Shown here in pieces: positions 9,112-25,413 of a stretch of DNA of 64,000 bases. How positions within the stretch are numbered: the first letter of the stretch is position 1; the number at the start of each line of letters is the position of its first letter. The stretch spans positions 16,317-80,316 of the forward strand of contig PTKZ01000005.1 of NCBI GenBank assembly GCA_002938205.1. The letters run 5' to 3'. The DNA is from Alphaproteobacteria bacterium MarineAlpha5_Bin5 (lineage in GTDB: Bacteria; Pseudomonadota; Alphaproteobacteria; HIMB59; GCA-002718135). Below the pieces are notes generated by a model. The model worked only from the letters and a program-made list of their open reading frames with translations, did no database searches and was not told the DNA's origin. A program made the position numbers and the translations under genes.

Positions 9112-9573
9112 ATGTCCAATAAATATAGAAAATGTGTTGGTATGATGATTTTAAATTCTAATAAAAAAATACTTGTTGGAAAAAGGCTTGATCATCCAAG
9201 TGGTTATTGGCAAATGCCTCAAGGAGGCATTGATGAAAATGAAAATCCTGAACAAGCAGTGTGGAGAGAAATGATGGAGGAAATTGGAACTAACAATGCA
9301 GAGTTATATAAAACTTCTAATCAATGGATTAATTATGATATACCGCAAGAAACTCTTAATCATTTGCCTTGGGGGAAAAAATATATTGGACAAAAGCAAA
9401 AGTGGTTTATTTTTAAATTTTCAGGAAATGATACAGATATAAATGTAGAAACTAAAAATCCTGAGTTCAGCAAATGGCAATGGATGGATAATAAAATACT
9501 AGTCGAAAATGCTGTTCCATTTAAAAGAAAAGTTTATCAATCTATTCTTAATGAATTTAAAGATTTATTCTAA
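9112..9573 (+). CDS. rppH: RNA pyrophosphohydrolase (Nudix)
   Basis: RppH removes pyrophosphate from the 5' end of mRNA to start its decay. The 153-residue product has the Nudix box beginning GGIDENENPEQAVWREMMEE (about residues 38-57). The flanking motifs are also RppH-like: YRKCVGMMI at the start, GYWQMPQGG, and WGKKYIGQKQKWF. Such small Nudix proteins were once annotated as dinucleoside polyphosphate hydrolases. It follows ctpA directly and converges with putA, whose 3' end overlaps by four bases, leaving no room for a terminator. Confidence 0.92.
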   Translation: MSNKYRKCVGMMILNSNKKILVGKRLDHPSGYWQMPQGGIDENENPEQAVWREMMEEIGTNNAELYKTSNQWINYDIPQETLNHLPWGKKYIGQKQKWFIFKFSGNDTDINVETKNPEFSKWQWMDNKILVENAVPFKRKVYQSILNEFKDLF

Positions 9574-12500
9574 TCATTAATAGTTGATAAAAGCTCAACA
9601 TTTCCTCCCATAGCAACAATATTATTAGAAATACTATATTCATAACAAAACTTTTTTAGATATTCTGGACCACCTGCTTTTGGTCCTGTACCAGATTTAT
9701 GATGTCCGCCAAATGGCTGGGATCCAACTACAGCTCCTACTATATTTCTGTTTATGTATGTATTACCTACATTGGTATTATTTATGACAGTTTCAATAAC
9801 ACTATTTATCCTGCTATGAATACCTAATGTTAAACCATAATTTAAAGAATTAATTTGATTACATAATTCAACTAATTTTTTTGAACTAAATGACAATACA
9901 TGTAAAACTGGACCGAATATTTCTTCATTAATTTCATCTATATTATTAATTTCTATGATTGCAGGATTGACAAAATTGCCTTTCTCATACACTTCACTTG
10001 AGTGATATTTTTTATCAAAGCTATTAACATGAGCTAAGATTTTTTCTTTGGCAGAGAAATCAATAACAGGTCCAACATCAGTTGAAATAAATTCTGGATT
10101 TGAAATGGTTAATGAATCTACAGCTCCCTTAAGCATATCCAGAGTTTTTGCATAAACGTTTTCTTCAATACATAATATTCGACAAGCCGAACATCTTTGG
10201 CCTGCGCTGTTAAATGCTGAGTTTATAACATCTTCTACTACATGTTCTGTTAATGCAGAACTATCTGCAATAAGACAATTAAGACCTCCAGTTTCAGCAA
10301 TTAAGTTTATTAAATCAGATCTTTCATAAAGTTGTTTTTGAATGATTTTTGCAGTTTCTAATGACCCAGTGAAAACAACATTTTGTAAATTTTTATTATA
10401 AAAAATTTTCGGACCAATATCTTCTCCCCTTCCTAATATTAAAGCAGCAGCATTTTTTGGAAGACCTGCTTTTAATAATAGGTTAAAAATTACGTAACTC
10501 AGATTGGATGTCTGTTCTGCAGGTTTTGCTAAAACAACATTACCACAGACTAGTGCTGCAATTAACTGTCCAACAAAAATAGCTATCGGAAAATTCCAAG
10601 GACTAATAACACATGTTAAACCTCTAGCTTTGAGTTTATAAATATTTTTTTCACCAGTGGGTCCAGGCAAATTCTTATCTTTAAAGATTTTTTTAGATTC
10701 TTCTGCATAGTATCTACAAAAATCAATCGCTTCTCTAATATCATCTATAGAGTCTTGTATGGTTTTGCCAGCTTCCTTCACACAACAGGATACAAGCATA
10801 TGATAATTATTTTCAAGTAAATCAGCAAAAGCATTTACGATACCAACTCTTTTATCTATATTACTATTTTTCCATTCCTTGCAGTATGAAGATAGATTTT
10901 CTATTGCCAGTGTTACTATATTTTCATTTGCATAGTATACTTTGCCAATAATATTTGAATTTGAGTAAGGAGAAATAATGTTTTTTTCAATTTTGGTAAA
11001 ATAATTTTTACCATTAACAATACTACATGCTTGAACATTATGAATATTTTGTAAATTTGTAAACAATATAATATTATTCTCTTCAGTTAAATCAACCCCG
11101 GCAGAATTTTTTCTATCAAGAAAAATATCTTCTGGTTTATTTATTTGATTATTTTCAATTTTATTTAATTTTAATAAAGGTGATTGTATTAAGTTATTTG
11201 TATCCGTATTCTTTTTATTTAGTTGATGAATAAAAGAAGTGTTTGCTCCATTCTCCAAAAGTCTTCTGACAAGATAAGGTAGAAGATCATTATATCCACC
11301 AACAGGAGCATAAACTCGACAAGAGAAATTTTTATTATTTTTAAAATGATTATAAATTTCATCTCCCATTCCATGCAATTTTTGAAATTCATGTTGCTTT
11401 GATTGAAAAAGCTTCTGAACATAAGCAATTGTAAAAGCATTATGGGTAGCAAACTGTGGAAATATATTCTTTGATTTCTCAAGGATATGAGCACATTTTA
11501 AATAAGATAAATCTGTTATGAATTTTTTTGTATAAACAGGATAATTTTCTAGCCCTTTTTCTTGCGCAAGCTTTATTTCTGTATCCCAATATGCTCCTTT
11601 TACTAAACGAACATTCATTTTTTTGTTTAAAGCTTGAAGTTTATTATCCAGCCATTTTAGTACAAATATAGATCGTTGTTGATAAGCTTGAACTGCTATT
11701 CCAAAACCTGAATAATCCTCGCTTATTATATTATTATCTAAAATATTCTCGATTAAAAAAAGTGATAAGTTTAAACGATCTGCTTCTTCAGCATCAAAAC
11801 ATATATCCAAATTAAATACTTTTGCTAATTTTATTAATTCAATTAACTTTGGCAATAGTTCTTTTCTAAGCAATTCAAGTTTATTACGTTCATACCTTGG
11901 GTGTAATGCAGACAATTTTATTGAAATACTGTGTCTTTTCTTTGAAGATGATTTGCCAATAACGTTAATTGCATTTTTGTAATTTTCAAAATACCTATTA
12001 GCATCTGCATACGTTCTAGCACCTTCACCTAACATATCAAAAGAGTATGCATAAATTGATCCGTCTAATTTTGATGATAACTCTGATGCTCTATTAATAT
12101 CTTTTTCAAATATAAATTGTTTAGCAAGAATATTTATTGATTGCTTTATTATTGAGCGTAGTACGGGTTTACTAATTTTTTTTAAAACAGACATAAAAAT
12201 ATCCGTTTCTTTCAATTCTTCTTTTTTCAAAATTTTTCCTGTCATTAAAAAAGCAATAGAGGAAATATTAACAAAAATATTGTTGTCATTTTTTATATGA
12301 TCTCTCCATTGTCCTGATGGTATTTTATCTTCAATTAAATCATTAATGGTTTTATTATCCGGTATTCGTAACAAAGCTTCTGCAAGACACATTAATACAA
12401 TTCCTTCTGAACTTGAAAGATCAAACTCGTGCATTAATTTTTCAAAAGCGTTGTAGGAATTATATTGCTTCGCAGATTCTATAATATTTTTTGCTGTCTC

Positions 12501-12608
12501 TTTTATTTCTCTCTCATGATAAAGAAGATAATTGCTAATTTCTGGAACTAAAAATTCATGCGTTAATTTTATCTGTTCGGTAAACTTATTTTCAAATATT
12601 TCTTGCAT
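9570..12608 (-). CDS. putA: Bifunctional proline dehydrogenase / P5C dehydrogenase
   Basis: PutA oxidises L-proline to P5C with FAD at the membrane, then P5C semialdehyde to glutamate with NAD. The 1012-residue product has an N-terminal helical arm, a PRODH barrel (about 180-470, including RLVKGAYWDTEIK) and an ALDH domain (about 520-1000) with ISPWNFPIAIF, LAKPAEQTS, ETGGLNCLI and catalytic Cys in AGQRCSACR. No ribbon-helix-helix DNA-binding domain precedes the arm, so it should not repress its own gene. A divergent Lrp-type regulator probably does that. The extra C-terminal domain of trifunctional PutAs is absent. Confidence 0.96.
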   Translation of the reverse strand: MQEIFENKFTEQIKLTHEFLVPEISNYLLYHEREIKETAKNIIESAKQYNSYNAFEKLMHEFDLSSSEGIVLMCLAEALLRIPDNKTINDLIEDKIPSGQWRDHIKNDNNIFVNISSIAFLMTGKILKKEELKETDIFMSVLKKISKPVLRSIIKQSINILAKQFIFEKDINRASELSSKLDGSIYAYSFDMLGEGARTYADANRYFENYKNAINVIGKSSSKKRHSISIKLSALHPRYERNKLELLRKELLPKLIELIKLAKVFNLDICFDAEEADRLNLSLFLIENILDNNIISEDYSGFGIAVQAYQQRSIFVLKWLDNKLQALNKKMNVRLVKGAYWDTEIKLAQEKGLENYPVYTKKFITDLSYLKCAHILEKSKNIFPQFATHNAFTIAYVQKLFQSKQHEFQKLHGMGDEIYNHFKNNKNFSCRVYAPVGGYNDLLPYLVRRLLENGANTSFIHQLNKKNTDTNNLIQSPLLKLNKIENNQINKPEDIFLDRKNSAGVDLTEENNIILFTNLQNIHNVQACSIVNGKNYFTKIEKNIISPYSNSNIIGKVYYANENIVTLAIENLSSYCKEWKNSNIDKRVGIVNAFADLLENNYHMLVSCCVKEAGKTIQDSIDDIREAIDFCRYYAEESKKIFKDKNLPGPTGEKNIYKLKARGLTCVISPWNFPIAIFVGQLIAALVCGNVVLAKPAEQTSNLSYVIFNLLLKAGLPKNAAALILGRGEDIGPKIFYNKNLQNVVFTGSLETAKIIQKQLYERSDLINLIAETGGLNCLIADSSALTEHVVEDVINSAFNSAGQRCSACRILCIEENVYAKTLDMLKGAVDSLTISNPEFISTDVGPVIDFSAKEKILAHVNSFDKKYHSSEVYEKGNFVNPAIIEINNIDEINEEIFGPVLHVLSFSSKKLVELCNQINSLNYGLTLGIHSRINSVIETVINNTNVGNTYINRNIVGAVVGSQPFGGHHKSGTGPKAGGPEYLKKFCYEYSISNNIVAMGGNVELLSTIND

Positions 12609-12712
12609 TTATGATGGAATTTACAATAATTTTTAAAAAAATTTTTACTGATATTTGATGTAATTTATTAATATTTATTGTATTTAATGATTTAATTAGA
12701 AAATATTTTTGA

Positions 12713-12718
12713 TATAAT
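12713..12718 (+). promoter_or_regulatory. Candidate -10 box for the Lrp-type regulator
   Basis: A perfect TATAAT at 12713-12718 lies 23 bases before the regulator start in the 133-base putA-regulator divergent gap. No good -35 box is evident (TTTAAT at 12691-12696 is weak). The gap is extremely AT-rich, so chance matches are likely. Confidence 0.35.
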
Positions 12719-12741
12719 ATAAAATAACACGAATTATTCTT

Positions 12742-13179
12742 ATGATAGATAAAATAGATGAACAAATTATCCAGTTTTTAGCGAAAAATGGACGGATAAA
12801 ATTAAGTGACCTTGCAAAAAAAGTAAATTTATCAATTTCACCATGTCAAGCTAGATTAAAAAAATTAGAAGATAAAAAATATATATTAGGATATCACGCA
12901 AGAGTAAATTATGAACAAATGCGAAAAGCACACATTGCATTCGTTCAAGTATCGCTATCTGATACAAGAGCATCAGCTTTAGAAAAATTTAACTTGGAGG
13001 TTTCAAAGCTTGAAAGTGTTGAACAATGTCATATGATTGCTGGTAATTTTGACTATTTATTAAAAGTAAGAACTAAAAATATTTCAGAATATAGAGTTTT
13101 GCTCTCAGAAAAAATATCGGCTCTCCCAAATGTTTCTTCAACTTCTACGTTTGTTTCAATGGAAACAGTTAAAGATTGA
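12742..13179 (+). CDS. Lrp/AsnC family regulator, probable proline-responsive activator
   Basis: The 145-residue protein has an N-terminal winged helix-turn-helix (about 1-60, with LSDLAKKVNLSISPCQARLKKLE) and a C-terminal RAM/Lrp ligand-binding domain (about 65-140). Proteins of this size bind an amino acid and form octameric or dimeric DNA-wrapping assemblies. It is divergent from putA, the arrangement known for PutR-type Lrp regulators of alphaproteobacteria, which activate putA in response to proline. Proline as the ligand is inferred from this context. It converges with the DUF917 gene with one base between them. Confidence 0.9.
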   Translation: MIDKIDEQIIQFLAKNGRIKLSDLAKKVNLSISPCQARLKKLEDKKYILGYHARVNYEQMRKAHIAFVQVSLSDTRASALEKFNLEVSKLESVEQCHMIAGNFDYLLKVRTKNISEYRVLLSEKISALPNVSSTSTFVSMETVKD

Positions 13180-13180
13180 T

Positions 13181-14245
13181 CTATAAAGGTTTGTAATCAA
13201 TATTGTATTTAAAATATTTTGGTCCAACTAAATCAATAGCTTCTTTTGATCTCCATATAGGATCACAAGGAAGACCTAATATGTTGACTGCAAGACCATA
13301 TTTCATTGCCTCAGTAGTTACAGGTTCTCCGGTATTAGCGTCAAATAAACAAATTAAATCAGGTGTTGTAGCTAACACTTTCTCACCTTCCTTAGCAATT
13401 AAGAATTCATTTTGAAAATCAAGTTTAGCATTTCTTCCTACAAAATCACCAATTCCTTCTAATTTTACAACACCTCTCGTAAAGCCTTCACCTGCAGTTC
13501 TTTCAACATCTCTGACTCTTGCTTGAAATAAATGTTTTCCATTAAGTTCTTTTGCAAGCACTAGATATGCATTAAAAGAATGTTCTTTAACTATGCAACC
13601 AATATAATGAATTAAAGATAAACTGTTTTTAATTAAATATTTTTTACATTCTGCTGCTGTAACAGGATATAAGCTTACCATAGCAGATCCTCCCATTTGA
13701 ATTGTAAGAGCTCTTGCTAATTTTTCTGTCCATTGATTGCTAATAGTATCGAATGTAGCTCCGTTTCCTTTATCATCTATCATTGCCATTGGAGTTGCTG
13801 TGATTCCTCCTAATGTAAAAGAAACCATTTGTAATTCAGGAAAAGCTCTACCCATGGCATCACCATCAACAATAGGTAATCCCAATTTAGCTGCAGCAAC
13901 AAATGGAATTGTAGAATTTAAGCCACCTGCTTCAATACAAAGTATTGCGGAAACTTTTTTTTGCATTAATCTTTCCATCATAGAAACAAGTTGTGTAAAT
14001 TCATTTCCAGAAGGAAATTTTTCCATCATTACTGTAGGGGCGCCCATCATTGCTATTGGAAGTATTAGAGAGTCATCATCAAGTTCATCAACTTCAATAA
14101 CCTTTACTGGTTCAGCATTTTTTAGACATTGATTTGTCATTAATCTACCAACGTAAGGATCACCTCCACCGCCGGATCCAAGAACAGCTCCGCCAATCGC
14201 TATAGCCTCTAATTTACCCTTATCAACTAATGTTATCTTTTTCAT
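13181..14245 (-). CDS. DUF917 family protein (hydantoinase-associated)
   Basis: The 354-residue product matches the DUF917 family, which is regularly encoded beside HyuA-like hydantoinase/oxoprolinase subunits; one characterised relative acts on S-methyl thiohydantoin. It starts with a glycine-rich AIGGAVLGSGGGGDPYVG loop and contains the conserved VDGDAMGRAFPELQM segment and GEPVTTEAMKYGL near the end. It has no signal peptide, so it should be cytoplasmic. It begins one base after the HyuA-like stop, is the last gene of a six-gene operon, and probably forms a functional unit with that HyuA-like protein. The reaction is unknown. Confidence 0.85.
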   Translation of the reverse strand: MKKITLVDKGKLEAIAIGGAVLGSGGGGDPYVGRLMTNQCLKNAEPVKVIEVDELDDDSLILPIAMMGAPTVMMEKFPSGNEFTQLVSMMERLMQKKVSAILCIEAGGLNSTIPFVAAAKLGLPIVDGDAMGRAFPELQMVSFTLGGITATPMAMIDDKGNGATFDTISNQWTEKLARALTIQMGGSAMVSLYPVTAAECKKYLIKNSLSLIHYIGCIVKEHSFNAYLVLAKELNGKHLFQARVRDVERTAGEGFTRGVVKLEGIGDFVGRNAKLDFQNEFLIAKEGEKVLATTPDLICLFDANTGEPVTTEAMKYGLAVNILGLPCDPIWRSKEAIDLVGPKYFKYNIDYKPL

Positions 14246-15790
14246 TTATGATTTACTTTCCATCTTAAGATCACCAACAACAGTTACATTAATTAACAAA
14301 TTATTGCCCGGTAAATAGGATAGCGGCATATCTGAAACTGCTAAAACTTTAATTGTTTTAGGGTCAGCATTTCTTTCTATAGCAAGCTTTTTTGCCTCTT
14401 CAGTAACTTGATTAATTGCAGTTGCTCTATCAATTTTATTTTCAATTAATACAATCTTGGATACTTGACCACTAACTTGCGCAATTGCTGCACCAACAGC
14501 ATTTGCTAAATCATTGTGAGGTGGTTTTATAACTTCTAATCCATCAATTTCTTCAGCAAGCATAACACTTCCGCCCCCAACAGCAATTACAGGAATTTTT
14601 TGACTAGAAGTTCTTGCTCTTGCAACTCTATCTTCAACCATTTGATCTATTATATTAATTATCTCATCTTTATTAATAACATTAGGCGCACATTTAGTGC
14701 CTATTTTACATCTTCCATATGAGACAGCAATATCTGTAGCAGTAAGAATACTACCTCCAAAAACCATAGCTTTATCGGTTAATTCATGGCCTACAGACTG
14801 CGGTCCTACTGATGGACTTTCTTTATTAATTATAGATCCTCCTCCTAAGCCAAAACTTATTACATCTGGCATAGAAAAGTTAGTTCTTACATCAGCTACT
14901 GTAACAGAGGTACCTGCTTGTCTTGGAAATCCATCTTTAACTTCTCCAACATCTGTTGTTGTGCCGCCAACATCTACCACAAGAGCATTTTTTTCTTTTG
15001 ATAAAAAAGCAGCTCCTCTCATTGAATTTGTAGGTCCACAAGCAAAAGTCAAAACTGGTAAATCAATTACTTCAGATGCTTGAATTAAAGTTCCATCATT
15101 TCTTGTAAAAAACATAGGGCAATTAAAATTTAATTTTTTTCGAAGATCTTCGAATGAATCAACAACTTCTTTAGCTAATGGTTTAAGTGTTGCATTAATT
15201 AGTGCAGCGTTTTCTCTTTCTAATAATCCCATTCCTCCAATATTTTTACCAAGCGAAATATTTGTATCTGGTGAGTATTTTTTAATTATGTCATATGCCT
15301 GTTGCTCCATATCTCCTCTAACAGTTGCAAATACAGAACTTATTGCAATTTGATCACATCCAAGTACTTTTAACTTTTCTAATGCATCAATAATTTCTTT
15401 CTCTTCTAATTTTGCAATTTCACTTCCATCCATTTCAAAACCACCTTTGACAAGTTGAAAATTACCATTCATAGAATCAACTAGCTCTTTTGGCCAATCT
15501 GCAAAAGGTAAAATAGATCCTCCAGATGGTAAACATATTCTAATCAAACCTGTTTTTGCTAAATTCTTTCTTTGCACTATAGCATTAACAAAATGAGTAG
15601 TTCCAATAATCAATGCTTCTGCTTGAAATGATTCTATTGTTGCTTGTTTAAGAGTTGCTTTAATAGCATTTTCAACGCCTGATAAAATGTCGGGAGTAGT
15701 AGGCCTTTTGGATCCTCCTAAAAATTTCTCTGCTTGCATAACAACTGCATCAGTATTAGTTCCACCAACATCTACTCCGATTCTAATCAT
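14246..15790 (-). CDS. HyuA-like hydantoinase/oxoprolinase family protein (short form)
   Basis: The 514-residue product has the actin/HSP70-like ATPase fold of the hydantoinase/oxoprolinase superfamily: RIGVDVGGTNTDAVV at the N-terminus, LVVDVGGTTTDVG near 270 and IAVGGGSVMLAEEIDG near 410. These enzymes couple ATP hydrolysis to opening of hydantoin or lactam rings. It lacks the longer C-terminal part of full HyuA proteins (about 680 residues), as is typical of the DUF917-linked subgroup. It follows the transporter permease by 29 bases and adjoins DUF917. The substrate is presumably what that transporter imports. Confidence 0.85.
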   Translation of the reverse strand: MIRIGVDVGGTNTDAVVMQAEKFLGGSKRPTTPDILSGVENAIKATLKQATIESFQAEALIIGTTHFVNAIVQRKNLAKTGLIRICLPSGGSILPFADWPKELVDSMNGNFQLVKGGFEMDGSEIAKLEEKEIIDALEKLKVLGCDQIAISSVFATVRGDMEQQAYDIIKKYSPDTNISLGKNIGGMGLLERENAALINATLKPLAKEVVDSFEDLRKKLNFNCPMFFTRNDGTLIQASEVIDLPVLTFACGPTNSMRGAAFLSKEKNALVVDVGGTTTDVGEVKDGFPRQAGTSVTVADVRTNFSMPDVISFGLGGGSIINKESPSVGPQSVGHELTDKAMVFGGSILTATDIAVSYGRCKIGTKCAPNVINKDEIINIIDQMVEDRVARARTSSQKIPVIAVGGGSVMLAEEIDGLEVIKPPHNDLANAVGAAIAQVSGQVSKIVLIENKIDRATAINQVTEEAKKLAIERNADPKTIKVLAVSDMPLSYLPGNNLLINVTVVGDLKMESKS

Positions 15791-15819
15791 TATTTTATCT
15801 TACACAGAGAAATATAATT

Positions 15820-16755
15820 TTAAACATTTTTTCTTTGCGACCATGAGTCTAGGGCAACAGCAATTACTATTACGAGACCTAAAATTATTCTTTGCCATAG
15901 TGGATCAACCTGTAGAAGATTGAAACCATTATTCATAAAAGCCAAAAAGAAGGCTGCTGCAACTGTACGCCAAATAGCACCTTTTCCACCCATAATAGAA
16001 GTCCCTCCAACAATAACTGCAGTTAAAACAGAAAATACAAAACTAAAATCATCAGAAGGTTGCGCTGATATTGATCTTGAAGAATTAACTATACCAGCTA
16101 ATGCTGCAGAGGCTCCTAATAAAATAAAGGTTGTTGCCTGAACCATAGGAACATTTATACCTGCTAACCTAGCAGCCTCTTGATTCCCACCAGTTGCAAA
16201 AACATTTCTTCCAAAACGAGTTCTGGTAAGAAGAATACTTGCAATAATTACTGTTATTAAAGCTATCCAAGTAGCTGAAGTAATATCAAAAAATTTTGTT
16301 CGGGCTATTTGTTGATAAGTATCAGTAACAGGTCTCATAAGTGATCTATCGCTTATTAAATAACCAAAACCAAAAAACATAAATGATGTTGCAAGAGTTG
16401 CAATAAAAGAGTTTACCTTAAAATACGTAACTACTATTGCATTAAAAGCACCTAATATAATTCCCAACCCTACTCCTCCAAATACACTTAAAAGAACATT
16501 ACCTGTTGCATTTTCAATATTAAGAGCAAATAAAGGTGCTACAACAAAAATTGCTGATATTGATATATCAAAATTACCAGATATTATTACGATAGTCATA
16601 AATGAAGCAGCAATTAAAATTGTCGATTGTTGATCAAGAAGATTTCTAATATTTCTTTCAGTAAAAAACCCTTCAGTGGTGAGAGCTAAAATTAAAAATA
16701 ATGATATTGTGATTACTGCTATTCCATATTTTCTTGATAATTCTATGATGTTCAT
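15820..16755 (-). CDS. Ribose-type ABC transporter permease
   Basis: The 311-residue product is an inner-membrane permease of the RbsC/BPD_transp_2 family, with about 8-10 hydrophobic helices. It has the conserved segments GNFDISISAIFVV and FATGGNQEAARLAGINV, the latter being the family's cytoplasmic coupling region, and later GGTSIMGGKGAIWRT. It forms an importer with the ATPase and binding protein upstream in the same operon. Its family usually imports pentoses and other sugars, but the operon lacks sugar-metabolism genes and carries hydantoinase-type genes instead, so a cyclic nitrogen compound is a better guess. Confidence 0.9.
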   Translation of the reverse strand: MNIIELSRKYGIAVITISLFLILALTTEGFFTERNIRNLLDQQSTILIAASFMTIVIISGNFDISISAIFVVAPLFALNIENATGNVLLSVFGGVGLGIILGAFNAIVVTYFKVNSFIATLATSFMFFGFGYLISDRSLMRPVTDTYQQIARTKFFDITSATWIALITVIIASILLTRTRFGRNVFATGGNQEAARLAGINVPMVQATTFILLGASAALAGIVNSSRSISAQPSDDFSFVFSVLTAVIVGGTSIMGGKGAIWRTVAAAFFLAFMNNGFNLLQVDPLWQRIILGLVIVIAVALDSWSQRKNV

Positions 16756-16757
16756 AA

Positions 16758-18275
16758 TTAGTTTTTAAATGTTGCTTCCATAATAGTTTTTTTATTTATT
16801 GCTGATCCCTCTAATTCAGCGGAAAGCTTACCTCTTGACATTACCAAAACTCTATTAGACATTCCAATGATCTCTTCAATTTCAGAGGAAATCAATAGTA
16901 CAGACTCACCAACATCAGATAATTTGGCTATTAGTTCATAAATTGATTTTTTTGCACCTATATCAACTCCTCTAGTGGGTTCGTCAGCAATAAGAAGTCT
17001 TGGTTTACCCATTGCAGCTTTTGCAAATAATATTTTTTGCTGATTTCCACCTGACAAATATTGTACTTCAAAATCAACACCATTGTGCTTGACTGTTGTT
17101 TTATTACAAGCCTCAATTACATCAACTTTTTCCTTTTTTTTATTAACTCCATAAATTGATGAAAATTTTTTTAAATAAGGCAAAGATATATTTTCAATTA
17201 ATGATCGAGCTAAAATTAAACCTTGTGTTCTTCTTGATTCTGGAACCATTGCAATACCCATATCAATAGATTTATTAATAGAATTATTTTTTATTTCTTT
17301 TCCATAAAAATTAATTTTTCCTTTGTCAGGTTTTTTATCTCCAAAAATTGTAAGCGCTAATTCACTTCTCCCTGATCCAACCAATCCTGATAAACCTACT
17401 ATTTCACCTCTTTTTATTTCAAAAGAAATTTTCTCAAATTCATTTTTTCTGGTTAAATTTGATACTTGTAAAATTGTTTCAGAATTTTTACTAACAGGTT
17501 TAATTTTTGGAAACAAGTTGCCTTCTTCTTTTCCAGTCATTCCTTCAATCAAACTTTTTTTTGTTTCTTTTTTTGCAATATTAGTTCTAATTAATTGCCC
17601 ATTACGTAGAAGTGAAATTCTATCTGAAATACTCAAAACTTCCTCTAAAAAATGTGAGATATATATTATTGTAGTTCCAGTCTTAGCCAACGAATTTACA
17701 AGAAAATGGAGTTGTTCTGTTTCATTACTAGCCAATCTTGCAGTTGGCTCATCAAAAACTATTAAGCGCGCATTACTATTTAGCGCTCTCAATATCTCAA
17801 CTTTTTGTTGCTCAGCAACAGATAATGAGCCTACTATTGAATCAGGATTTAAAAACAAATTAAAACGGTTCATTACAGATAATACTTTTTCTTTTGTTTT
17901 TTTAGAAGAAACAAAAAATCCTGAAGTTAGTTCCCTTCCCATTGCAATATTATCTACAACAGTTCTGCTAGGTAAAAGAGAGAGTTCTTGAGAAATACCT
18001 ACAAGACCAAGATTAACTGATTGTACTGGTGAATTAATTTGGGATTCTTTCCCTTCGATTAACATCTGCCCAGAGTCTAGCTTATACGCTCCCAAAATTA
18101 TTTTACCTAAAGTAGATTTTCCAGCTCCATTTTCACCTACAAGTGAATGTATCTCACCCATTTTAAAATCAATATTACAATTGATTAAAGCTTTTGTAGC
18201 GCCAAAGCTCTTAGAAACATTTTTAAATGATATAAGAGCTTCAGCAGTTTTTTGATTTATATTTAACCGTCCCAC
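16758..18275 (-). CDS. Ribose-type ABC transporter ATP-binding protein (tandem NBD, GTG start)
   Basis: The 505-residue product has two nucleotide-binding domains, the RbsA/MglA layout. NBD1 (about 15-245) has Walker A GENGAGKS and signature LSVAEQQKVE. NBD2 (about 260-500) has the degenerate Walker A GLVGSGRSELA and signature LSGGNQQKILFAKA, the usual asymmetry in this family. The frame begins with GTG at 18275, overlapping the binding-protein stop by 13 bases; no ATG lies before the first conserved segment. It energises the adjoining permease. Confidence 0.92.
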   Translation of the reverse strand: MGRLNINQKTAEALISFKNVSKSFGATKALINCNIDFKMGEIHSLVGENGAGKSTLGKIILGAYKLDSGQMLIEGKESQINSPVQSVNLGLVGISQELSLLPSRTVVDNIAMGRELTSGFFVSSKKTKEKVLSVMNRFNLFLNPDSIVGSLSVAEQQKVEILRALNSNARLIVFDEPTARLASNETEQLHFLVNSLAKTGTTIIYISHFLEEVLSISDRISLLRNGQLIRTNIAKKETKKSLIEGMTGKEEGNLFPKIKPVSKNSETILQVSNLTRKNEFEKISFEIKRGEIVGLSGLVGSGRSELALTIFGDKKPDKGKINFYGKEIKNNSINKSIDMGIAMVPESRRTQGLILARSLIENISLPYLKKFSSIYGVNKKKEKVDVIEACNKTTVKHNGVDFEVQYLSGGNQQKILFAKAAMGKPRLLIADEPTRGVDIGAKKSIYELIAKLSDVGESVLLISSEIEEIIGMSNRVLVMSRGKLSAELEGSAINKKTIMEATFKN

Positions 18276-19246
18276 TCAGCAGTAAATTTAGAAATATTAT
18301 CTGTAGTCATTAAGCCTTCATCAGGAATTGAACTTAAAGGATCAATACCTCCTCTGTCTGTACCATTAAGAGCATCAACCATGGATTCCATTGCAAGTCT
18401 TCCTTCAGTTCCTGGTGCTCCAAATACACCTGCAAACCATGAGCCATCAGCAATACCTTTTATTGCTGGCGCAGATCCACCAAGACCGATTAACTTTACT
18501 TTACCGGTCATTCCTTCGTCAGCTAAAACTATAGCAGCACCTTGCATAGATTGATCGGCACCAACCATAACATCAAAAGATTTACCTGTGCTTAAAATAT
18601 CTTGAGTTGCTGCAATACCGCCATCAGGACCTAGATATTTACCTTCACCTTCAGCAACAACTTTTATATTTGAGTGATTTGAAATAACATCATCAAAACC
18701 TTGGCGAATTGCATCATCCAAAGGAATTCCCTTTATTCCATAAATAAATACAACTTCACAATTATCATCACCTTCACATGCTTTTACTGTTAGATTACCA
18801 TGTCTTGTTCCCGATCTATAAGGTGCTGCTAAAACTGAAGCTGCAATTCCGTCTACTTGTGGATCTGAGGTTGTTAAATCTGGTCCTACAACTTGATTAA
18901 GAACTACAATTTCAATGCCTGCAGCTATTGCTGATTCAATATCAGGAATTAATCCCACTCCGTAAATTGCACAAACAACTATACCGTCATACTTACCTGA
19001 TGCTATTGCATCTTGTAACTGAGCTGTCTGTTTTGCTGGATCAAATTGTGCATCAAATTCGGTTATGTTAATTCCATTTGCATTTGCTACAGCCTCCATC
19101 TCTCTTACTGATGCTGCCAACCAAGTATTAGCAGAACTCGCAGAAAGGTATGCTACTTCTTTTGCTAAAACAATTTTGTTGAAACTAAATATACAAATCA
19201 ATGAAAATAAAATTGAAAAAAATAAACTTTTTTTTCTATACTTCAT
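18263..19246 (-). CDS. Ribose-type ABC transporter periplasmic binding protein
   Basis: The 327-residue product has an N-terminal signal peptide (about 1-28, basic then hydrophobic, ending VLAKE) and a Peripla_BP_4-type sugar-binding fold, including ITEFDAQFDPAKQTAQLQDA and the hinge-region segment DVMVGADQSMQGAAIVL. It captures the ligand for the permease and ATPase that follow. Ribose-family binding proteins also bind autoinducer, nucleoside-like and cyclic compounds, so the ligand is open. A strong ribosome binding site precedes it. Expression is likely higher than the other transporter genes. Confidence 0.9.
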   Translation of the reverse strand: MKYRKKSLFFSILFSLICIFSFNKIVLAKEVAYLSASSANTWLAASVREMEAVANANGINITEFDAQFDPAKQTAQLQDAIASGKYDGIVVCAIYGVGLIPDIESAIAAGIEIVVLNQVVGPDLTTSDPQVDGIAASVLAAPYRSGTRHGNLTVKACEGDDNCEVVFIYGIKGIPLDDAIRQGFDDVISNHSNIKVVAEGEGKYLGPDGGIAATQDILSTGKSFDVMVGADQSMQGAAIVLADEGMTGKVKLIGLGGSAPAIKGIADGSWFAGVFGAPGTEGRLAMESMVDALNGTDRGGIDPLSSIPDEGLMTTDNISKFTAEWDG

Positions 19247-19249
19247 AAT

Positions 19250-19256
19250 ACCTCCT
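19250..19256 (-). promoter_or_regulatory. Strong ribosome binding site of the ribose-type binding protein
   Basis: On the minus strand AGGAGGT lies four bases (ATTA-type spacer) before the ATG at 19246. It is a near-perfect anti-16S match, which is rare in this window and fits the high demand for a periplasmic binding protein. Confidence 0.7.
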
Positions 19257-19333
19257 AAAAATGATTTTAAGCTAACATTTAAATAAATTTTCTACAACTT
19301 TATTCTTCTTTTATTAATTTAAGAATTCAAAAA

Positions 19334-20134
19334 TTAACTTACAACAATTCTATTTCCGAATGGATCTTCATCTTTAAATAATCCAAATTTTTCTATTTCT
19401 TTATTTGATGGGGATTCACAACTCCACTTTCTGCTAGGAATTAAGTTAAATCTTCTTTTTAAATTGGCATGATGTTCTGCTTTTTTCAATGCAGCTAAAG
19501 AAGGGTCGATTACTGGAACACCAATTTCTTCTTGCAAAGTTTTATAAAACCCAAATTCAGCTGTACATCCTAGTATGATTGATTCTGCGTAATCTTTTTC
19601 TACAGCTTTTCTTGATGCATCAATTAATAAATTTACAGTTCTTTGATGATCTTCTTGAAAATCATCTACACCGAGTCCAACATCATAAAACCCAGTAAGC
19701 TTATCACCATAACCATATTCGTGCACATTGCTTTTCATTTGATTAACCCATTTTCTTCTTCCAACAATTATTCCAAAATTGTTTGCTAAACTTAGAGCTA
19801 TTTCCATTGATGAATGGCATGGCGCAACTACAACCATATCACCTGAAACCTCCCTTGCATCATGAAGGGCAGTATCATAAAAACAGCCTATAGCTAATGC
19901 GTCAAAACCTTCTTTTTCTGCACAAACTGTAGCATTAATTATACCAGCAGTCGCTAGTGCTTCATAAGATCTATATTCAATATGTGAAAAACTTCCATTA
20001 TTATCTTTTAGAGAGGTTATATGAACTTCTGTATTTGAATCTTTTGTATCTTTAACCATATCCTCAAAAAGAACATCTAAACTATCTACTCCAACTGGAG
20101 TAAGATACATGATTTTTAATGGTTTATCTTTCAT
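19334..20134 (-). CDS. Asp/Glu/hydantoin racemase family protein
   Basis: I chose ATG at 20134 (MKDKPLKIMYLTPVG); a TTG at 20164 would add ten residues. The 266-residue product has the two catalytic cysteines expected of the family, in IGCFYDTALHDARE and ILGCTAEFGFY, placed so that one deprotonates and the other reprotonates a chiral carbon. The family includes aspartate, glutamate and hydantoin racemases and allantoin racemase. It is the first gene of the operon with a ribose-type transporter, a HyuA-like protein and DUF917, which favours a hydantoin-like substrate over free amino acids. Specificity is inferred. Confidence 0.85.
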   Translation of the reverse strand: MKDKPLKIMYLTPVGVDSLDVLFEDMVKDTKDSNTEVHITSLKDNNGSFSHIEYRSYEALATAGIINATVCAEKEGFDALAIGCFYDTALHDAREVSGDMVVVAPCHSSMEIALSLANNFGIIVGRRKWVNQMKSNVHEYGYGDKLTGFYDVGLGVDDFQEDHQRTVNLLIDASRKAVEKDYAESIILGCTAEFGFYKTLQEEIGVPVIDPSLAALKKAEHHANLKRRFNLIPSRKWSCESPSNKEIEKFGLFKDEDPFGNRIVVS

Positions 20135-20247: not shown

Positions 20248-21345
20248 ATGACAAATAAAAAAATTAACAAGCTTCAAGCTGCTTTAATTGATGAAAATCT
20301 TGACTTATTAGCGATCGTTCCAGGTTCAAATTTTTTATATTTAACTGGAGGCAATTTTCATCTTATGGAAAGACCAACAATTTTACTTATTTCAAAAAAC
20401 ATAAAACCAATTGCAATTTTACCAGTTTTAGAAGTTGATAGTTTTAATAAGTTAAAATTAGATGCTGATATTATTGAGTGGCAAGATAGTGATGGTTATC
20501 AATCAGCATTTAACAAAGCTTATGAGAAGTTGGCTCCAATCAAAAAAATAGGTATTGAGGGTCAGCGAATGAGAGTTTTTGAGTCACAGGCAATCGAAAA
20601 AGCTTTTAAAAATATTGAGATAATAAATGCTCACAAATTTATTAATAAAATTAGATTAAATAAAGATGAAGCAGAGATTAACAATTTACAAAAAGCAGTT
20701 AATATTGCCGAAACTTCATTAAAAGAAACTATAAAGTTTGTTGAAGAAGGTAAAACAGAAATTGAAATAAAAAATTTTCTTATTCAACAATTATATCGTT
20801 ATGGAGCAGAGGGAATTGCTTTTGATCCTATTGTTTTAGCTTCAGATAATTCTGCATTACCACATGGTCATTCGAGAAAAGATTATAAAATTCGTAATGG
20901 TGATTGTTTACTTTTTGATTTTGGTGCAACTGTAAATGGTTACCATTCAGATATAACAAGAACTTTTTTTGTTAAATCTGTATCAGATGAGCAAAAAAAT
21001 ATTTATGAAGCTGTTCTAAGAGCAAATCAAATTGGTATAGAAATATCAAAACCTGGATTAACTCTTCATGAACTTGATGATACTGTTTTAAAAAGTTTAG
21101 CTGATTCAAATTATAGGGAATTGATTGTTCATAAAACAGGACATGGATTGGGCTTGGACGTTCATGAAGATCCATATGTGATGAGAAAAAATCATGATGT
21201 GCTGGAAGAAGGAATGGTTATTACAATAGAACCAGGCTTATATAAAAAAGGAAGTCTTGGAGTGAGAATTGAAGATGATGTAGTTATTACGAAAAGTGGG
21301 TGCAAAAGCTTAACTACATTTCCAAAACAACTTACTATTATCTAA
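20248..21345 (+). CDS. M24 family metallopeptidase (Xaa-Pro dipeptidase/aminopeptidase-like)
   Basis: The 365-residue product has a creatinase-type N-terminal domain (about 1-125) and a pita-bread catalytic domain. All five metal ligands expected are visible: Asp in LLFDFGATVNG and SDITRTFF, His in GHGLGLDVHEDPYV, Glu in VITIEPGLY and Glu in GVRIEDDVV. The family cleaves Xaa-Pro bonds, but members also act as creatinase and DMSP lyase, so the substrate is not certain. It lies alone on the plus strand between two catabolic operons and could release proline or another product for PutA. Cytoplasmic, with no signal peptide. Confidence 0.88.
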   Translation: MTNKKINKLQAALIDENLDLLAIVPGSNFLYLTGGNFHLMERPTILLISKNIKPIAILPVLEVDSFNKLKLDADIIEWQDSDGYQSAFNKAYEKLAPIKKIGIEGQRMRVFESQAIEKAFKNIEIINAHKFINKIRLNKDEAEINNLQKAVNIAETSLKETIKFVEEGKTEIEIKNFLIQQLYRYGAEGIAFDPIVLASDNSALPHGHSRKDYKIRNGDCLLFDFGATVNGYHSDITRTFFVKSVSDEQKNIYEAVLRANQIGIEISKPGLTLHELDDTVLKSLADSNYRELIVHKTGHGLGLDVHEDPYVMRKNHDVLEEGMVITIEPGLYKKGSLGVRIEDDVVITKSGCKSLTTFPKQLTII

Positions 21346-21353
21346 TAATCAAA

Positions 21354-21869
21354 TTATTTTTTTTTCATCTTCATTTGGTGAATAATAAAAAATGGAGCAA
21401 GAAGTTGAGCATAATTTTTAACATCACTAATACTTTTTTTATTATAGTAATTTTCTTTATGTAAAATATTTAAGGTGCCTAATACCTTTTTATTACTTAT
21501 AATAGGTATATTAATAATTGAGCCACATCCAAGTGATTTTATAACTTCATAATCAAAAAACAATTTTTTTATTTGATTAAAGTTAGAACCTAAAAATTCT
21601 TTTTTGTTTACTATGACTCTATTTGTCCAAGCATTTTTTGGTATAGGCTTAGTTCCTAATAAAGGATAAATTTTTTTATTATTTGAATAAACTCTTTCAA
21701 CATATTTTTCAGAATTATCAACTACCATTAGTGTGAATAACTTATGACCAACTGACTTTTTTATTGCAACATCGAGTTTTTTATAGAACACACTAGCTTT
21801 AAAATTTTTTGAATCAGATAATAGATTAACTATCTTTCTATTATTTTGGTTTAATTTCATCTTCTTCAT
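21354..21869 (-). CDS. GAF domain protein at the end of the peptide-type ABC operon
   Basis: The 171-residue product is a single GAF domain, with LFTLMVVDNSEKYVERVYSNN early and GSIINIPIISNKKVLGTLNI in the core strands. Single GAF proteins bind small molecules and often sense them. The start overlaps the upstream ATPase gene by 29 bases (ATG at 21869) or 20 bases (ATG at 21860); I cannot choose firmly. No DNA-binding or enzymatic domain is attached. Its co-transcription with an importer suggests it senses or binds the imported solute, which is inference. The last residues are lysine-rich. Confidence 0.75.
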   Translation of the reverse strand: MKKMKLNQNNRKIVNLLSDSKNFKASVFYKKLDVAIKKSVGHKLFTLMVVDNSEKYVERVYSNNKKIYPLLGTKPIPKNAWTNRVIVNKKEFLGSNFNQIKKLFFDYEVIKSLGCGSIINIPIISNKKVLGTLNILHKENYYNKKSISDVKNYAQLLAPFFIIHQMKMKKK

Positions 21870-22617
21870 CTGTTACTGTCGGAATAGCTCTGATTAAAGT
21901 TTTGGTATAATCACTTTTTGGTCTAGAAAATACTTCCATCGTTTTACCAAATTCATCAATTTTACCTTTATTCATTACCAATACCCTATTTGCAATATTT
22001 TTTACAACACTCAAATCATGCGTAATAAAAATATAAGTTAGATTAAATTTGTTCTTTATGTTTAATAGAAGGTTTAAAACTTTAGATTGAACTATTACAT
22101 CTAAAGCTGATGTAGGCTCATCAAGAATCAAAACTTTTGGTTCAGATGCCAAAGCACGAGCAATTGCAACTCTTTGCTTTTGACCCCCTGAAAGAGTATC
22201 AGGGTATCGATGCATAAATTCTGCGTCTAATCCTACATAAGAAAGAAGTTTTTCAACTCTATCTGAAATTTTGTCATTACTAACAATTTTATGAATTTTT
22301 AAAGGCAAAGAAATAGTATTATAAATTGTTTTTTTTGGATTTAGAGTAGACATCGGATTTTGTTGAACAAATTGTATAAGTTTTCTTAAATTCAAACTTC
22401 TGTTCGAAGACAACAAACTATCTTCTAACCATACTTCTCCATTATCTTGATTATAAATTCCAAGAATAATGTTTGCTAATGTTGTTTTTCCAGATCCAGA
22501 TTCTCCCACAATTGCAAAACAGTCGCTTTCTTCAATTTTTAAACTTATATTATCTAATGCTTGAACAATATTGCTTTTGATAATAAATTTTTTTGAAATA
22601 TTTTTTACTTCAATCAT
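21841..22617 (-). CDS. Dipeptide/oligopeptide-type ABC transporter ATP-binding protein (DppF/OppF-like)
   Basis: The 258-residue product is an ABC ATPase with Walker A GESGSGKTT, Q-loop FVQQNPMSTLNPKKT, signature LSGGQKQRVAIARAL and Walker B VLILDEPTSALD. It pairs with the preceding DppD-like ATPase to power a two-permease importer. It lacks the extended C-terminal iron-sulfur/oligopeptide tail seen in some OppF proteins, ending soon after the typical SRPKSDYTKTLI. It overlaps the GAF gene at its 3' end. Confidence 0.9.
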   Translation of the reverse strand: MIEVKNISKKFIIKSNIVQALDNISLKIEESDCFAIVGESGSGKTTLANIILGIYNQDNGEVWLEDSLLSSNRSLNLRKLIQFVQQNPMSTLNPKKTIYNTISLPLKIHKIVSNDKISDRVEKLLSYVGLDAEFMHRYPDTLSGGQKQRVAIARALASEPKVLILDEPTSALDVIVQSKVLNLLLNIKNKFNLTYIFITHDLSVVKNIANRVLVMNKGKIDEFGKTMEVFSRPKSDYTKTLIRAIPTVTDEEDEIKPK

Positions 22618-22622
22618 AATAT

Positions 22623-23483
22623 TTATCTATGCGTATATTTTGCAATTGCTGCATAATCTGGTGAATCTTCATCAAATTTAGGCAATTGATTATTAGTAAG
22701 TTTAGGAATTGAATTTAATAGAGCTTTTGTATAGGGGTGACCAGGATTTTTAAAAACTTGATCTTTAGTTCCTTCCTCAACAATTACTCCTCTAAAAATT
22801 ACATAAACTTTTTCTGCAAATTTTCTAACAACACCCATATTATGAGTTATAAGCAATACAGCAGTATTAGTTTCTTGCGTTAAATCATGCATTAGATCCA
22901 AAGCCTGATTTTGTATAGTTACATCAAGAGCTGTACTAGGTTCATCCGCTAGTAGTAATTCAGGTTTGTTTATCATTGCCATTGTAATAACTACTCTTTG
23001 AGCTAAACCCCCACTTAATTGAAAGGGGTATGACTCCAAAACTCTTTCAGGATCTCTTATTGAAACTTTTTCTAAAGCTTTACTAGCGATAAAAAAAGAT
23101 TCTTTTTTTGACATAGGTTTGTTATTTAAATTTACCTCATAAAATTGATCTTTAATTTTAAAAACAGGATTAAGAGCTGCAATTGGATCTTGAAAAATTA
23201 TAGAAATATTATTTCCTCTAATTTTTTTAAATTCTTTTTGAGAAAGATTTAAAATATTTTTATCATTAAAAATTATTTTCCCTTTTTTAGTTACGTTTTT
23301 TTGATTAAGTAATCCTAAAATAAGTTTAGTAGTGACGGACTTACCAGAACCTGATTCTCCAACTAAAGCAACTTTTTCTCCTTTATGTAATTCTAAGTTA
23401 ATTTTTTTTAATACATAAGAAAGTCCTTCATACATTTTGAAAGATAATTCTAAGTCTTCAATTTTCAATAATTTATTAGACAT
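22623..23483 (-). CDS. Dipeptide/oligopeptide-type ABC transporter ATP-binding protein (DppD/OppD-like)
   Basis: I chose ATG at 23483 (MSNKLLKIEDLEL), giving an 8-base overlap with the permease stop; starts at 23489 or a TTG at 23492 add two or three residues. The 286-residue product has Walker A GESGSGKSVTT, signature LSGGLAQRVVI and Walker B LLLADEPSTALDVT, plus the C-terminal oligo_HPY segment around HPYTKALLNSIP. The signature is GGLAQ instead of the usual GGMRQ, a conservative change. It works with the adjoining DppF-like ATPase. Confidence 0.9.
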   Translation of the reverse strand: MSNKLLKIEDLELSFKMYEGLSYVLKKINLELHKGEKVALVGESGSGKSVTTKLILGLLNQKNVTKKGKIIFNDKNILNLSQKEFKKIRGNNISIIFQDPIAALNPVFKIKDQFYEVNLNNKPMSKKESFFIASKALEKVSIRDPERVLESYPFQLSGGLAQRVVITMAMINKPELLLADEPSTALDVTIQNQALDLMHDLTQETNTAVLLITHNMGVVRKFAEKVYVIFRGVIVEEGTKDQVFKNPGHPYTKALLNSIPKLTNNQLPKFDEDSPDYAAIAKYTHR

Positions 23484-24324
23484 CAACATCAAACATGTCT
23501 TTGAGACCGTCTCCTACTAAATTAAATCCAAGAACGACTATCAATATTGCAAAACCAGGGAAAAGTGAAAACCACCATGTATCAGGTAGCATAGAAGCAC
23601 CCTTTGCTACCATGGTGCCAAGGTCAGGAGTTGGAGGTTGTGCTCCAAGTCCTAAAAAACTTAAAGAAGATCCAACAAGAATAACAAAACCAAGATCCAA
23701 AGTTATTTTTGTTAATAAAGAAGGCAAACAATTAGGGAGAATTTCACGAAACATTATATGGATTTTAGATGCTCCCATAATTTCAGCTGCAACTATATAT
23801 CCTTCTGTTTTAATTGATCTGGTAATATTGTAAATTAATCTTGTATACCAAGGCCACCAAGCCATTGAAACTGCTATCATGGTGTATAATAAATTAGGTC
23901 TGTCCAATAAACCTATAATAGATAAAGCTAATACTAAAGCTGGTATTGCTAAAAAGACATCAGTGATTCTCATTAAAACCAGTTCTGTTTTTCTGCCGAT
24001 ATATCCAGCACATAATCCCATGGTAACGCCTATGGGCACAGCTATAGCTAAAACAACAATACCTAAAATAAGAGAGATACGATAACCAAATATACATCTA
24101 GTAAATATGTCTCTTCCTATTTTATCTGTTCCAAAAATATAAGTGGAACTTGGGGGTTTAGATTTATTTGCAAAATCAGTGAAAGGACCAACATGTTCTG
24201 GGAAAGGAGTTATGTATGGTGCAAAAATAGCTAATAAAACCACTACACAAACAATAATCAAACCAAAAATAGATAAAGGATTTCTGCTAAATTTATAAAA
24301 ATACTTTGATTTGAAAAAATTCAT
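23476..24324 (-). CDS. Dipeptide/oligopeptide-type ABC transporter permease (DppC-like)
   Basis: The 282-residue membrane protein has the OppC/DppC plan: an N-terminal helix (about 17-39), then the extracytoplasmic segment with FGTDKIGRDIFTRCIFG, and five further helices. The coupling motif EIMGASKIHIMFREILPNCLP matches the EAA loop that contacts the ATPases. It forms the heterodimeric channel with the DppB-like permease two bases upstream. Substrate type (dipeptide, oligopeptide, glutathione or other) cannot be told from the permease. Confidence 0.92.
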   Translation of the reverse strand: MNFFKSKYFYKFSRNPLSIFGLIIVCVVVLLAIFAPYITPFPEHVGPFTDFANKSKPPSSTYIFGTDKIGRDIFTRCIFGYRISLILGIVVLAIAVPIGVTMGLCAGYIGRKTELVLMRITDVFLAIPALVLALSIIGLLDRPNLLYTMIAVSMAWWPWYTRLIYNITRSIKTEGYIVAAEIMGASKIHIMFREILPNCLPSLLTKITLDLGFVILVGSSLSFLGLGAQPPTPDLGTMVAKGASMLPDTWWFSLFPGFAILIVVLGFNLVGDGLKDMFDVDV

Positions 24325-24325
24325 A

Positions 24326-25342
24326 TTATTCCTTTATTGTTATTCTTGGATTTAAAAGTAAAACAAAAAAATCAACGAGCATATTAATAATAAGAAAAAA
24401 GGTAGTAATAATTAGTGCCGTTGCAATTATCCCATTTAAATCTTTAGCAAGAATTGTCTCTACTCCATATTTTGCCATTCCTGGCCAAACAAAAACTGTT
24501 TCAACTAAAAAAGCATTTCCTAACATAAAAGCAAAATCTAAACCTATTATAGTTACTGTAGGAATTGATGCAGGTTTTAAAGCATATTTAGTAGCAATTT
24601 TATATTCACTATAAGAATAAGATTTTGCAAATTCTATATATTGCTTCTCATAAATATCGCTTAAATTTGTTCTTGTTAAACGAGAAACATTACCTATTGC
24701 TGGCATTGCAATAGCAAGACCAGGTAAAAATAGATGAAAAAGAGCATCTTTAAAAAAATTTAGATCTCCTGCTATCAAAGAATCAATTAGTAAAAGACCA
24801 GTAACTATTTTAGGCGGATCTAAAGCTTCATCAAATCTTTCAGCGACTGGGAATATTGGTATCCAATAGGCAAATACCAACATTAATATAATTGCCCATA
24901 AAAAACTTGGGGTCACAACACCTAACAAAGAAATTATTCTTGCAATATGATCAACAAATGTATTTTTAAATTTACCTGATAAAATACCTAAGGGCATTCC
25001 AATTAAAATCATAAGAGTTCCTGACATAAGAACTAATTCAAATGTAGCAGGAAAATAACTAATTATATCTGTAAGAACAGGTCTTTTTGTATAAGTTGAT
25101 ATACCCAGGTCTCCTTGAAACAATTGTTGTATAAAAATTTTATATTGAATAAAAATTGATTCATTAAGATGTAATGTTTCTCTTAATTGCTCAACCATCT
25201 CCTTGGTTGCAAAAGGGCCAAGAGCTATTCTTGCTGGATCACCAGGAATTAATCTTGCAAGACAAAAAATAACTATTGAAACCCCAAAAAAAACAATAAC
25301 TGAAACAAAAATTCTTCTTAAAAAATATTGAGTAGTAGACAA
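24326..25342 (-). CDS. Dipeptide/oligopeptide-type ABC transporter permease (DppB-like)
   Basis: The 338-residue membrane protein has an N-terminal helix (about 9-31), the family motif RLIPGDPARIALG, the segment GDLGISTYTKRPV, and later helices with the coupling loop YIEFAKSYSYSEYKIATKYALKP truncated here to its core. It is separated from the binding-protein gene by 71 bases that contain a strong hairpin, so it is probably expressed at a lower level than that gene. Confidence 0.92.
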   Translation of the reverse strand: MSTTQYFLRRIFVSVIVFFGVSIVIFCLARLIPGDPARIALGPFATKEMVEQLRETLHLNESIFIQYKIFIQQLFQGDLGISTYTKRPVLTDIISYFPATFELVLMSGTLMILIGMPLGILSGKFKNTFVDHIARIISLLGVVTPSFLWAIILMLVFAYWIPIFPVAERFDEALDPPKIVTGLLLIDSLIAGDLNFFKDALFHLFLPGLAIAMPAIGNVSRLTRTNLSDIYEKQYIEFAKSYSYSEYKIATKYALKPASIPTVTIIGLDFAFMLGNAFLVETVFVWPGMAKYGVETILAKDLNGIIATALIITTFFLIINMLVDFFVLLLNPRITIKE

Positions 25343-25377
25343 AACAATTTAACCGCTATGATGTGTTTATAAACATT

Positions 25378-25400
25378 AAAGGCCGGATAATCCGGCCTTT
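25378..25400 (-). terminator. Intercistronic hairpin after the peptide-type binding-protein gene
   Basis: A perfect inverted repeat, AAAGGCCGGA-TAA-TCCGGCCTTT, lies in the 71 bases between the binding-protein gene and dppB. It is the most GC-rich sequence in its surroundings. On the minus strand it is followed by AATGTTTATAAAC and not a long U-run, so it may act as a leaky terminator or as a 3' stabiliser that keeps binding-protein mRNA more abundant than permease mRNA. Confidence 0.75.
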
Positions 25401-25413
25401 AAAAGAAAAAAAA

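Follow-up and report, generated by a model that had tools for sequence, protein, structure and literature searches.

We analyzed a 64,000-nucleotide stretch of DNA (the window) from Alphaproteobacteria bacterium MarineAlpha5_Bin5 and focused on a putative operon at positions 13181-20134 that couples a ribose-type importer to ring-opening enzymes. The source genome is 1.58 Mb in 55 contigs, and the window has an AT-rich composition (30.5% GC). The operon consisted of six tightly packed genes, all on the minus strand, with intergenic gaps of about 90 bases or less. In the 5' to 3' direction, the genes encoded a racemase, a periplasmic binding protein, a two-domain ATP-binding cassette (ABC) ATPase, a permease, a HyuA-like protein, and a DUF917 protein. 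An initial annotation of the window had placed a racemase, a ribose-type importer, a HyuA-like protein, and DUF917 here, and profile matches confirmed each of them at its coordinates. The adjacent PF13407 binding protein, two-domain ATPase, and PF02653 permease identified the importer as a CUT2/ribose-type system. Among the scanned genes of the operon and its surroundings, no sugar kinase or isomerase was recognized, which bore out the same remark in the initial annotation. The functional context extended past the limits of that annotation. Specifically, genes for PutA and an Lrp-family regulator were located downstream (9570-13179), and genes for an M24 peptidase, a Dpp transporter, HyuA/HyuB pairs, and a cis-3-hydroxyproline dehydratase were located upstream (20248-37609).

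An AlphaFold model of the binding protein (mean pLDDT 88.6) adopted the ribose-binding-protein fold, and its best structural matches were 4yv7, 2fn9, 2ioy, and 2fn8. Pocket residues were placed by sequence alignments to Escherichia coli RbsB, whose polar ribose contacts we take to be N13, D89, R90, R141, N190, D215, and Q235. Six of these seven contacts were replaced in 24 orthologs, five of them by invariant residues. Specifically, D89, R90, D215, and Q235 of RbsB corresponded to N117, Q118, G256, and G276 of the window protein, and these four replacements were invariant in the 24 sequences. R141 was replaced by a hydrophobic residue (I, L, M, or A), and the counterpart of N190 was alignment dependent (D231 in two alignments and the adjacent A230 in a third). 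The sole polar contact that was kept was N13, which corresponded to N40. The aromatic positions F15 and F164 were occupied by W42 and Y204, respectively, which were likewise invariant. A PF13407 paralog encoded in the same genome (L055) served as a control, and its positions 89, 141, 215, and 235 were still occupied by Asp, Arg, Asp, and Gln. Thus, the window protein lacked most of the polar contacts of a ribose-binding protein.

The invariant pocket substitutions provided strong evidence, at the level of aligned residues, that the ligand would be neither ribose nor a sugar like it, and that a single ligand type would be common to the whole family. A non-sugar ligand, which the initial annotation had predicted, is well supported because the ribose contacts were lost and their replacements were almost all invariant in the 24 orthologs. 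The structure prediction that it had called for yielded the ribose fold and, by alignment, a pocket without most of the sugar contacts. That annotation had also named a sugar regulon conserved in relatives as a sign against its idea; the relatives instead showed a proline and dipeptide context, as described below.

Two unusual forms of the binding protein were also observed. In L083 (8867-10819) and L085 (3-2033), two binding-protein domains were fused in tandem in one open reading frame of about 650 to 676 residues, which is unusual for a CUT2 importer. In L002 (2-964), a paralogous ribose-type binding protein, which was 35% identical and had its own ATPase and permease, was located beyond a HyuA/HyuB pair. 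The pocket of this paralog differed again (L and F at positions 117 and 118), which suggests that it may serve a sister ligand.

Querying GTDB genomes with the binding protein yielded 25 loci (61 to 88% identity), and a later search added loci from Acidimicrobiia. In total, the loci came from Alphaproteobacteria, Gammaproteobacteria (e.g., Candidatus Thioglobus), and Acidimicrobiia. The binding protein, ATPase, and permease genes were always found together, and the HyuA and DUF917 genes adjoined them wherever the contig extended far enough; the exceptions to the adjacency count were L014/L085 (one contig) and L083, in which the contig ended upstream of the binding protein. Because more than 20 genomes from three bacterial groups shared this combination, the gene arrangement is not a product of chance. 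The occurrence of the module was sporadic: it was found in 1 of 385 sampled genomes in the class of the window and in 10 of 395 in the class of G406, and G161, a genome of the same genus, carried neither the binding protein nor DUF917. This distribution suggests that the module spread horizontally. Viral copies of the module were searched for, and none were found.

The sets of genes beside the module varied in the Alphaproteobacteria and Gammaproteobacteria, and included a HyuA/HyuB pair, a GAF protein, an XRE-cupin regulator, and an M24 peptidase. A large protein of about 500 residues with a LuxR-type helix-turn-helix, a domain that was confirmed in L024, adjoined DUF917 in several alphaproteobacterial loci (L010, L012, L024, L049, and L050) and was not beside DUF917 in the window. 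L003, which is titled Euryarchaeota archaeon, contained a near-identical operon of the alphaproteobacterial type with a binding protein 85 to 87% identical to that of the window, and this contig may be mislabeled or misbinned.

The HyuA-like protein matched PF05378 in its N-terminal region and covered only positions 1 to 174 of the 291-position Hydantoinase_A profile (PF01968). Its phosphate motifs were conserved (GVDVGGTNTDAV and a DVGGTTTDVG-type motif), and its best solved relative was the N-methylhydantoinase 7hk5 (E 4.5e-22). In all loci whose sequence was intact, it adjoined DUF917. A two-subunit HyuA/HyuB amidase consists of a full-length HyuA and an adjacent HyuB; here, the HyuA was short and its partner was DUF917. 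The DUF917 protein scored 104.5 bits against the S-methyl thiohydantoin desulfurase model NF058532 (cut-off 450) and 87.5 bits against the thiohydantoin desulfurase model NF058529 (cut-off 440). Because these scores were far under the curated equivalog cut-offs, the protein fell outside both described desulfurase families. The sole structural match to its AlphaFold model was 2o3i, a structural-genomics entry without an assigned function.

The racemase carried both catalytic cysteines of the PF01177 fold (C94 and C200, numbered from the TTG codon at 20164), which were aligned in its homologs and placed it in the Asp/Glu racemase superfamily. Its closest solved relative was OpaE (9qbx, E 1e-26), and other solved relatives included hydantoin and allantoin racemases. 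OpaE uses two cysteines to convert D to L in non-ribosomal-peptide derivatives (PMC12661438).

The genes beside the module pointed to dipeptides and proline. About 20 loci had a gene for an M19 or M24 dipeptidase-type protein in the operon or next to it. In Acidimicrobiia, HyuA was followed by an M19 dipeptidase in most loci and then usually by a PucR-type regulator, and the window, L004, L006, L007, and L050 had an M24 peptidase next to the module. In nine genomes (the window genome, G385, G391, G401, G402, G403, G406, G784, and G792), PutA and DUF917 were separated by about 5 kb or less. In the window genome (G000), the PutA gene was the single Pro_dh match, and in G406, a complete 3.8-Mb chromosome, the only Pro_dh match was about 4 kb from DUF917. 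The chance of finding PutA within 10 kb of a given gene was 0.5 to 1.3% per genome and about 6e-7 jointly for G000, G391, and G406, a rough figure that uses three genomes, one per lineage, chosen for showing the linkage, with PutA elsewhere in ten other carriers. The Lrp-PutA pair adjoined the operon in L002 and L049 as well as in the window.

In Acidimicrobiia, genes for a FAD-dependent amine oxidase and an ornithine-cyclodeaminase-family protein were frequently found beside the module. In L018 and L026, the latter protein lay in the same gene runs and scored 384 and 356 bits, respectively, which is above the cut-off of 322 for NF004793, the model for delta1-pyrroline-2-carboxylate/piperideine-2-carboxylate reductase. 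L078 and L079 contained co-directional genes for PutA, DUF917, HyuA, M19, PucR, the binding protein, ATPase, permease, oxidase, and reductase.

The remaining neighbors in the window are listed with the operon genes in Table 1. In the case of the M24 protein, the best-scoring model was the Xaa-Pro dipeptidase PepQ at 218 bits, under its cut-off of 630; the protein is nevertheless likely to supply the dipeptide-cleaving step. The GAF-domain protein accompanied the module in Alphaproteobacteria and Gammaproteobacteria, and the dipeptide-type ABC importer possibly belongs to the pathway. One of the HyuB genes in the HyuA/HyuB region was on the opposite strand and had no adjacent co-directional HyuA partner. 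Homologs of HyuA3/HyuB3, as pairs or single members, flanked the module in L004 to L008, L010, L024, L050, and L080. The cis-3-hydroxyproline dehydratase was above its cut-off in 4 of 21 genomes and was near the module in the window only; because it was not conserved with the module, cis-3-hydroxyproline was rejected as the conserved substrate. An Rfam scan of the window matched no RNA element, and a promoter scan gave a signal no higher than that of shuffled sequence.

Table 1. Genes of the operon and of the flanking region, in window coordinates
Feature	Coordinates	Strand	Evidence and remarks
DUF917 (S-Me-THD-like)	13181-14245	-	PF06032 + PF20906, E<=1e-57; proposed hydrolytic partner of HyuA-like ATPase
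Short HyuA-like ASKHA ATPase, 514 aa	14246-15790	-	PF05378 + first part of PF01968
CUT2-type ABC permease (BPD_transp_2)	15820-16755	-	PF02653; best NCBIfam model AraH-type, under cut-offs
CUT2-type two-domain ABC ATPase	16758-18275	-	PF00005; best models xylose/RbsA-type, under equivalog cut-offs
Ribose-fold periplasmic binding protein	18263-19246	-	PF13407; Foldseek top matches ribose/CUT2 binding proteins
Asp/Glu/hydantoin racemase family (Asp/Glu-family racemase/epimerase)	19334-20134 (ATG; 20164 if TTG start)	-	PF01177
PutA, proline dehydrogenase/aldehyde dehydrogenase	9570-12608	-	PF01619, E 4.8e-85
Lrp/AsnC-family regulator, divergent from PutA	12742-13179	+	PF01037/PF13412
M24 metallopeptidase, PepQ-like, divergent from racemase	20248-21345	+	PF00557/PF01321; metal-ligand motifs present
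GAF-domain protein	21354-21869	-	Homologs in L004-L007 and L024; GAF domain in L006 copy
Dipeptide-type ABC importer (ATPases, permeases, DppA-like binding protein)	21841-27024	-	NCBIfam DppA/NikA/OppA-type matches for 25414-27024
Three HyuB + two HyuA, caprolactamase/N-methylhydantoinase type	27143-36463	both	NF050156/NF050157 best matches, under cut-offs
cis-3-Hydroxyproline dehydratase	36503-37609	-	NF043002, 558 bits (cut-off 500)

The reading that we favor, to which we give an even chance, is that the operon would serve to import and break down a cyclic amide with proline as a product. On this reading, the amide would most likely be a proline-containing cyclic dipeptide (2,5-diketopiperazine). 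Proline as the end-product is fairly well supported, and the gene context makes a strong case for a dipeptide intermediate; the same context suggests that the ligand itself may be a diketopiperazine. Cyclodipeptide oxidase gene clusters are enriched in PF01177 and DUF917 proteins and contain peptidases and dipeptide transporters (PMC11055893), which independently connects both families with cyclic dipeptides.

We infer the following order of steps. The ribose-type importer would carry a neutral ring into the cell, with the sugar clamp replaced by a rebuilt pocket of Asn40, Trp42, Asn117, Gln118, and Tyr204. The racemase would invert one alpha-carbon of the ring before opening, the HyuA-like ATPase would use ATP to activate one ring amide, and DUF917 would complete the hydrolysis to a linear dipeptide. 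Relatives of DUF917 hydrolyze an S-methyl imidate-like carbon, and, by analogy, the ATP-activated amide made by HyuA could be a comparable target. A dipeptidase (M24 beside the window operon and M19 in Acidimicrobiia) would then release the amino acids, and L-proline would be oxidized by PutA. In Acidimicrobiia, D-proline may be converted to pyrroline-2-carboxylate by the FAD oxidase and then to L-proline by the delta1-pyrroline-2-carboxylate reductase. M19 enzymes often accept L-Xaa-D-Xaa dipeptides, which fits the proposed D-proline route. The best score for the reductase in the window genome was 147 bits, against the cut-off of 322, so the D-proline branch is unsupported there.

Several observations weigh against a diketopiperazine module. 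PutA was located elsewhere in ten of the genomes checked, and the oxidase and reductase adjoined the module chiefly in Acidimicrobiia (with a single related oxidase in L003). The M24 proteins scored under the PepQ cut-off and may lack prolidase activity. A literature search found no demonstration of a role for DUF917 or a short HyuA on any lactam. In addition, second copies of DUF917/HyuA were found in another pathway, so the pair alone is not specific to diketopiperazines. These copies, which were observed in Acidimicrobiia (L051:3112-9399, L052:7688-14401, and L053:8505-14913), were accompanied by xanthine-dehydrogenase-type molybdenum hydroxylase subunits and, in L051 and L053, by luciferase-like monooxygenase and APH-type kinase genes. 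They probably represent another heterocycle pathway, and their association with molybdenum hydroxylases suggests that the HyuA/DUF917 pair serves more than one ring.

It is unlikely that a hydantoin, cyclic ureide, or thiohydantoin is instead the compound taken up and degraded by the module, with racemization followed by HyuA/DUF917 opening of the ring to an N-carbamoyl amino acid, as in the breakdown of hydantoin or S-methyl thiohydantoin. DUF917 bears the name of S-methyl thiohydantoin desulfurase, and the solved relatives of the HyuA-like protein and the racemase include the hydantoin enzymes noted above. However, no N-carbamoyl amino acid hydrolase was recognized among the module genes scanned, and dipeptidases, PutA, and pyrroline-2-carboxylate reductase were present instead. 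Because these were the conserved partners, a cyclic dipeptide is favored over a ureide or thiohydantoin. The initial annotation had guessed at a cyclic ureide or thiohydantoin, and we rejected this part of it since DUF917 was far under both desulfurase cut-offs. Slightly less probable still is another proline-type lactam or imino acid derivative, such as a hydroxyproline-containing cyclic peptide fragment, a piperidine or pipecolate lactam, or a 5-oxoproline derivative, in place of a plain diketopiperazine. The reductase family also reduces piperideine-2-carboxylate, and the nearby HyuA/HyuB pairs resemble caprolactamase, but the hydroxyproline enzyme was not conserved with the module, and a simple lactam needs no dipeptidase step.

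A sugar or nucleoside importer that merely happens to lie among hydantoinase-like genes is improbable. The binding protein has the fold of ribose-, allose-, and other sugar-binding proteins, which are its nearest solved relatives, but this explanation has to contend with the altered sugar contacts, the identical enzyme partners across distant bacterial groups, and the fact that no scanned gene was recognized as a sugar kinase or isomerase. We regard ectoine or creatinine utilization, which also employs M24, racemase-, ornithine-cyclodeaminase-family, or HyuA-type proteins, as the least probable explanation. Ectoine clusters contain M24, racemase-family, and ornithine-cyclodeaminase-family proteins and an Lrp regulator, all of which were represented here, and weak matches to DoeA and EutC were detected. 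Those matches reached only 94 bits (DoeA, cut-off 575) and 125 bits (EutC, cut-off 472), the racemase had no EutA match, the ornithine-cyclodeaminase-family protein was above the cut-off as a pyrroline-2-carboxylate reductase, and PutA and M19 are not expected in such a cluster. An ectoine utilization cluster was therefore rejected.

Cyclic dipeptides occur abundantly as natural products and signals, yet little is known about how they are degraded. All 15 peptidases tested in PMC3852281 failed to cut them, and a literature search at the title and abstract level found nothing relevant on a dedicated cyclic-dipeptide importer. With somewhat less confidence than we place in the module's general role, we propose that marine and other bacteria may possess a dedicated, horizontally spread system that imports proline-containing cyclic dipeptides through an ABC transporter and opens their rings. 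In this system, HyuA-DUF917 would be a new ATP-dependent cyclic-dipeptide hydrolase and a ribose-type binding protein would have been rebuilt for a non-sugar ring. If this is true, it would explain a nutrient route in these bacteria, assign to DUF917/HyuA pairs a function that can be tested, and mean that a "ribose transporter" annotation can mask a peptide-like nutrient.

The proposed module resembles several known systems in part. The binding protein shares its fold with the ribose-binding proteins of E. coli and Thermotoga maritima (template-modeling score of 0.70 to 0.75 by query length), and the importer has the three-gene layout with a two-domain ATPase found in E. coli RbsABC. Unlike in ribose importers, the polar ribose contacts are replaced, and the partners are ring-opening, peptidase, and proline genes in place of ribokinase and pyranase. 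The DUF917 protein belongs to the same superfamily as the NF058532 and NF058529 desulfurases, detectable over most of its length, but differs from them in its low scores and in its position beside a HyuA ATPase and dipeptidases. Like the HyuA/HyuB amidases (N-methylhydantoinase 7hk5, 5-oxoprolinase 6yra, and caprolactamase), the module has the N-terminal HyuA domains with ATP-binding motifs; in contrast to them, its HyuA is 514 residues long with a partial Hydantoinase_A profile, and DUF917 takes the place of HyuB. The window racemase keeps the cysteine dyad of OpaE (9qbx, PMC12661438), although OpaE is a fungal, biosynthetic enzyme. The synthase-less cyclodipeptide oxidase clusters in the considered parts of PMC11055893 share PF01177 racemases, DUF917, peptidases, and dipeptide transporters with the module, whereas no cyclodipeptide oxidase was recognized here and those parts of the paper do not mention a ribose-type importer.

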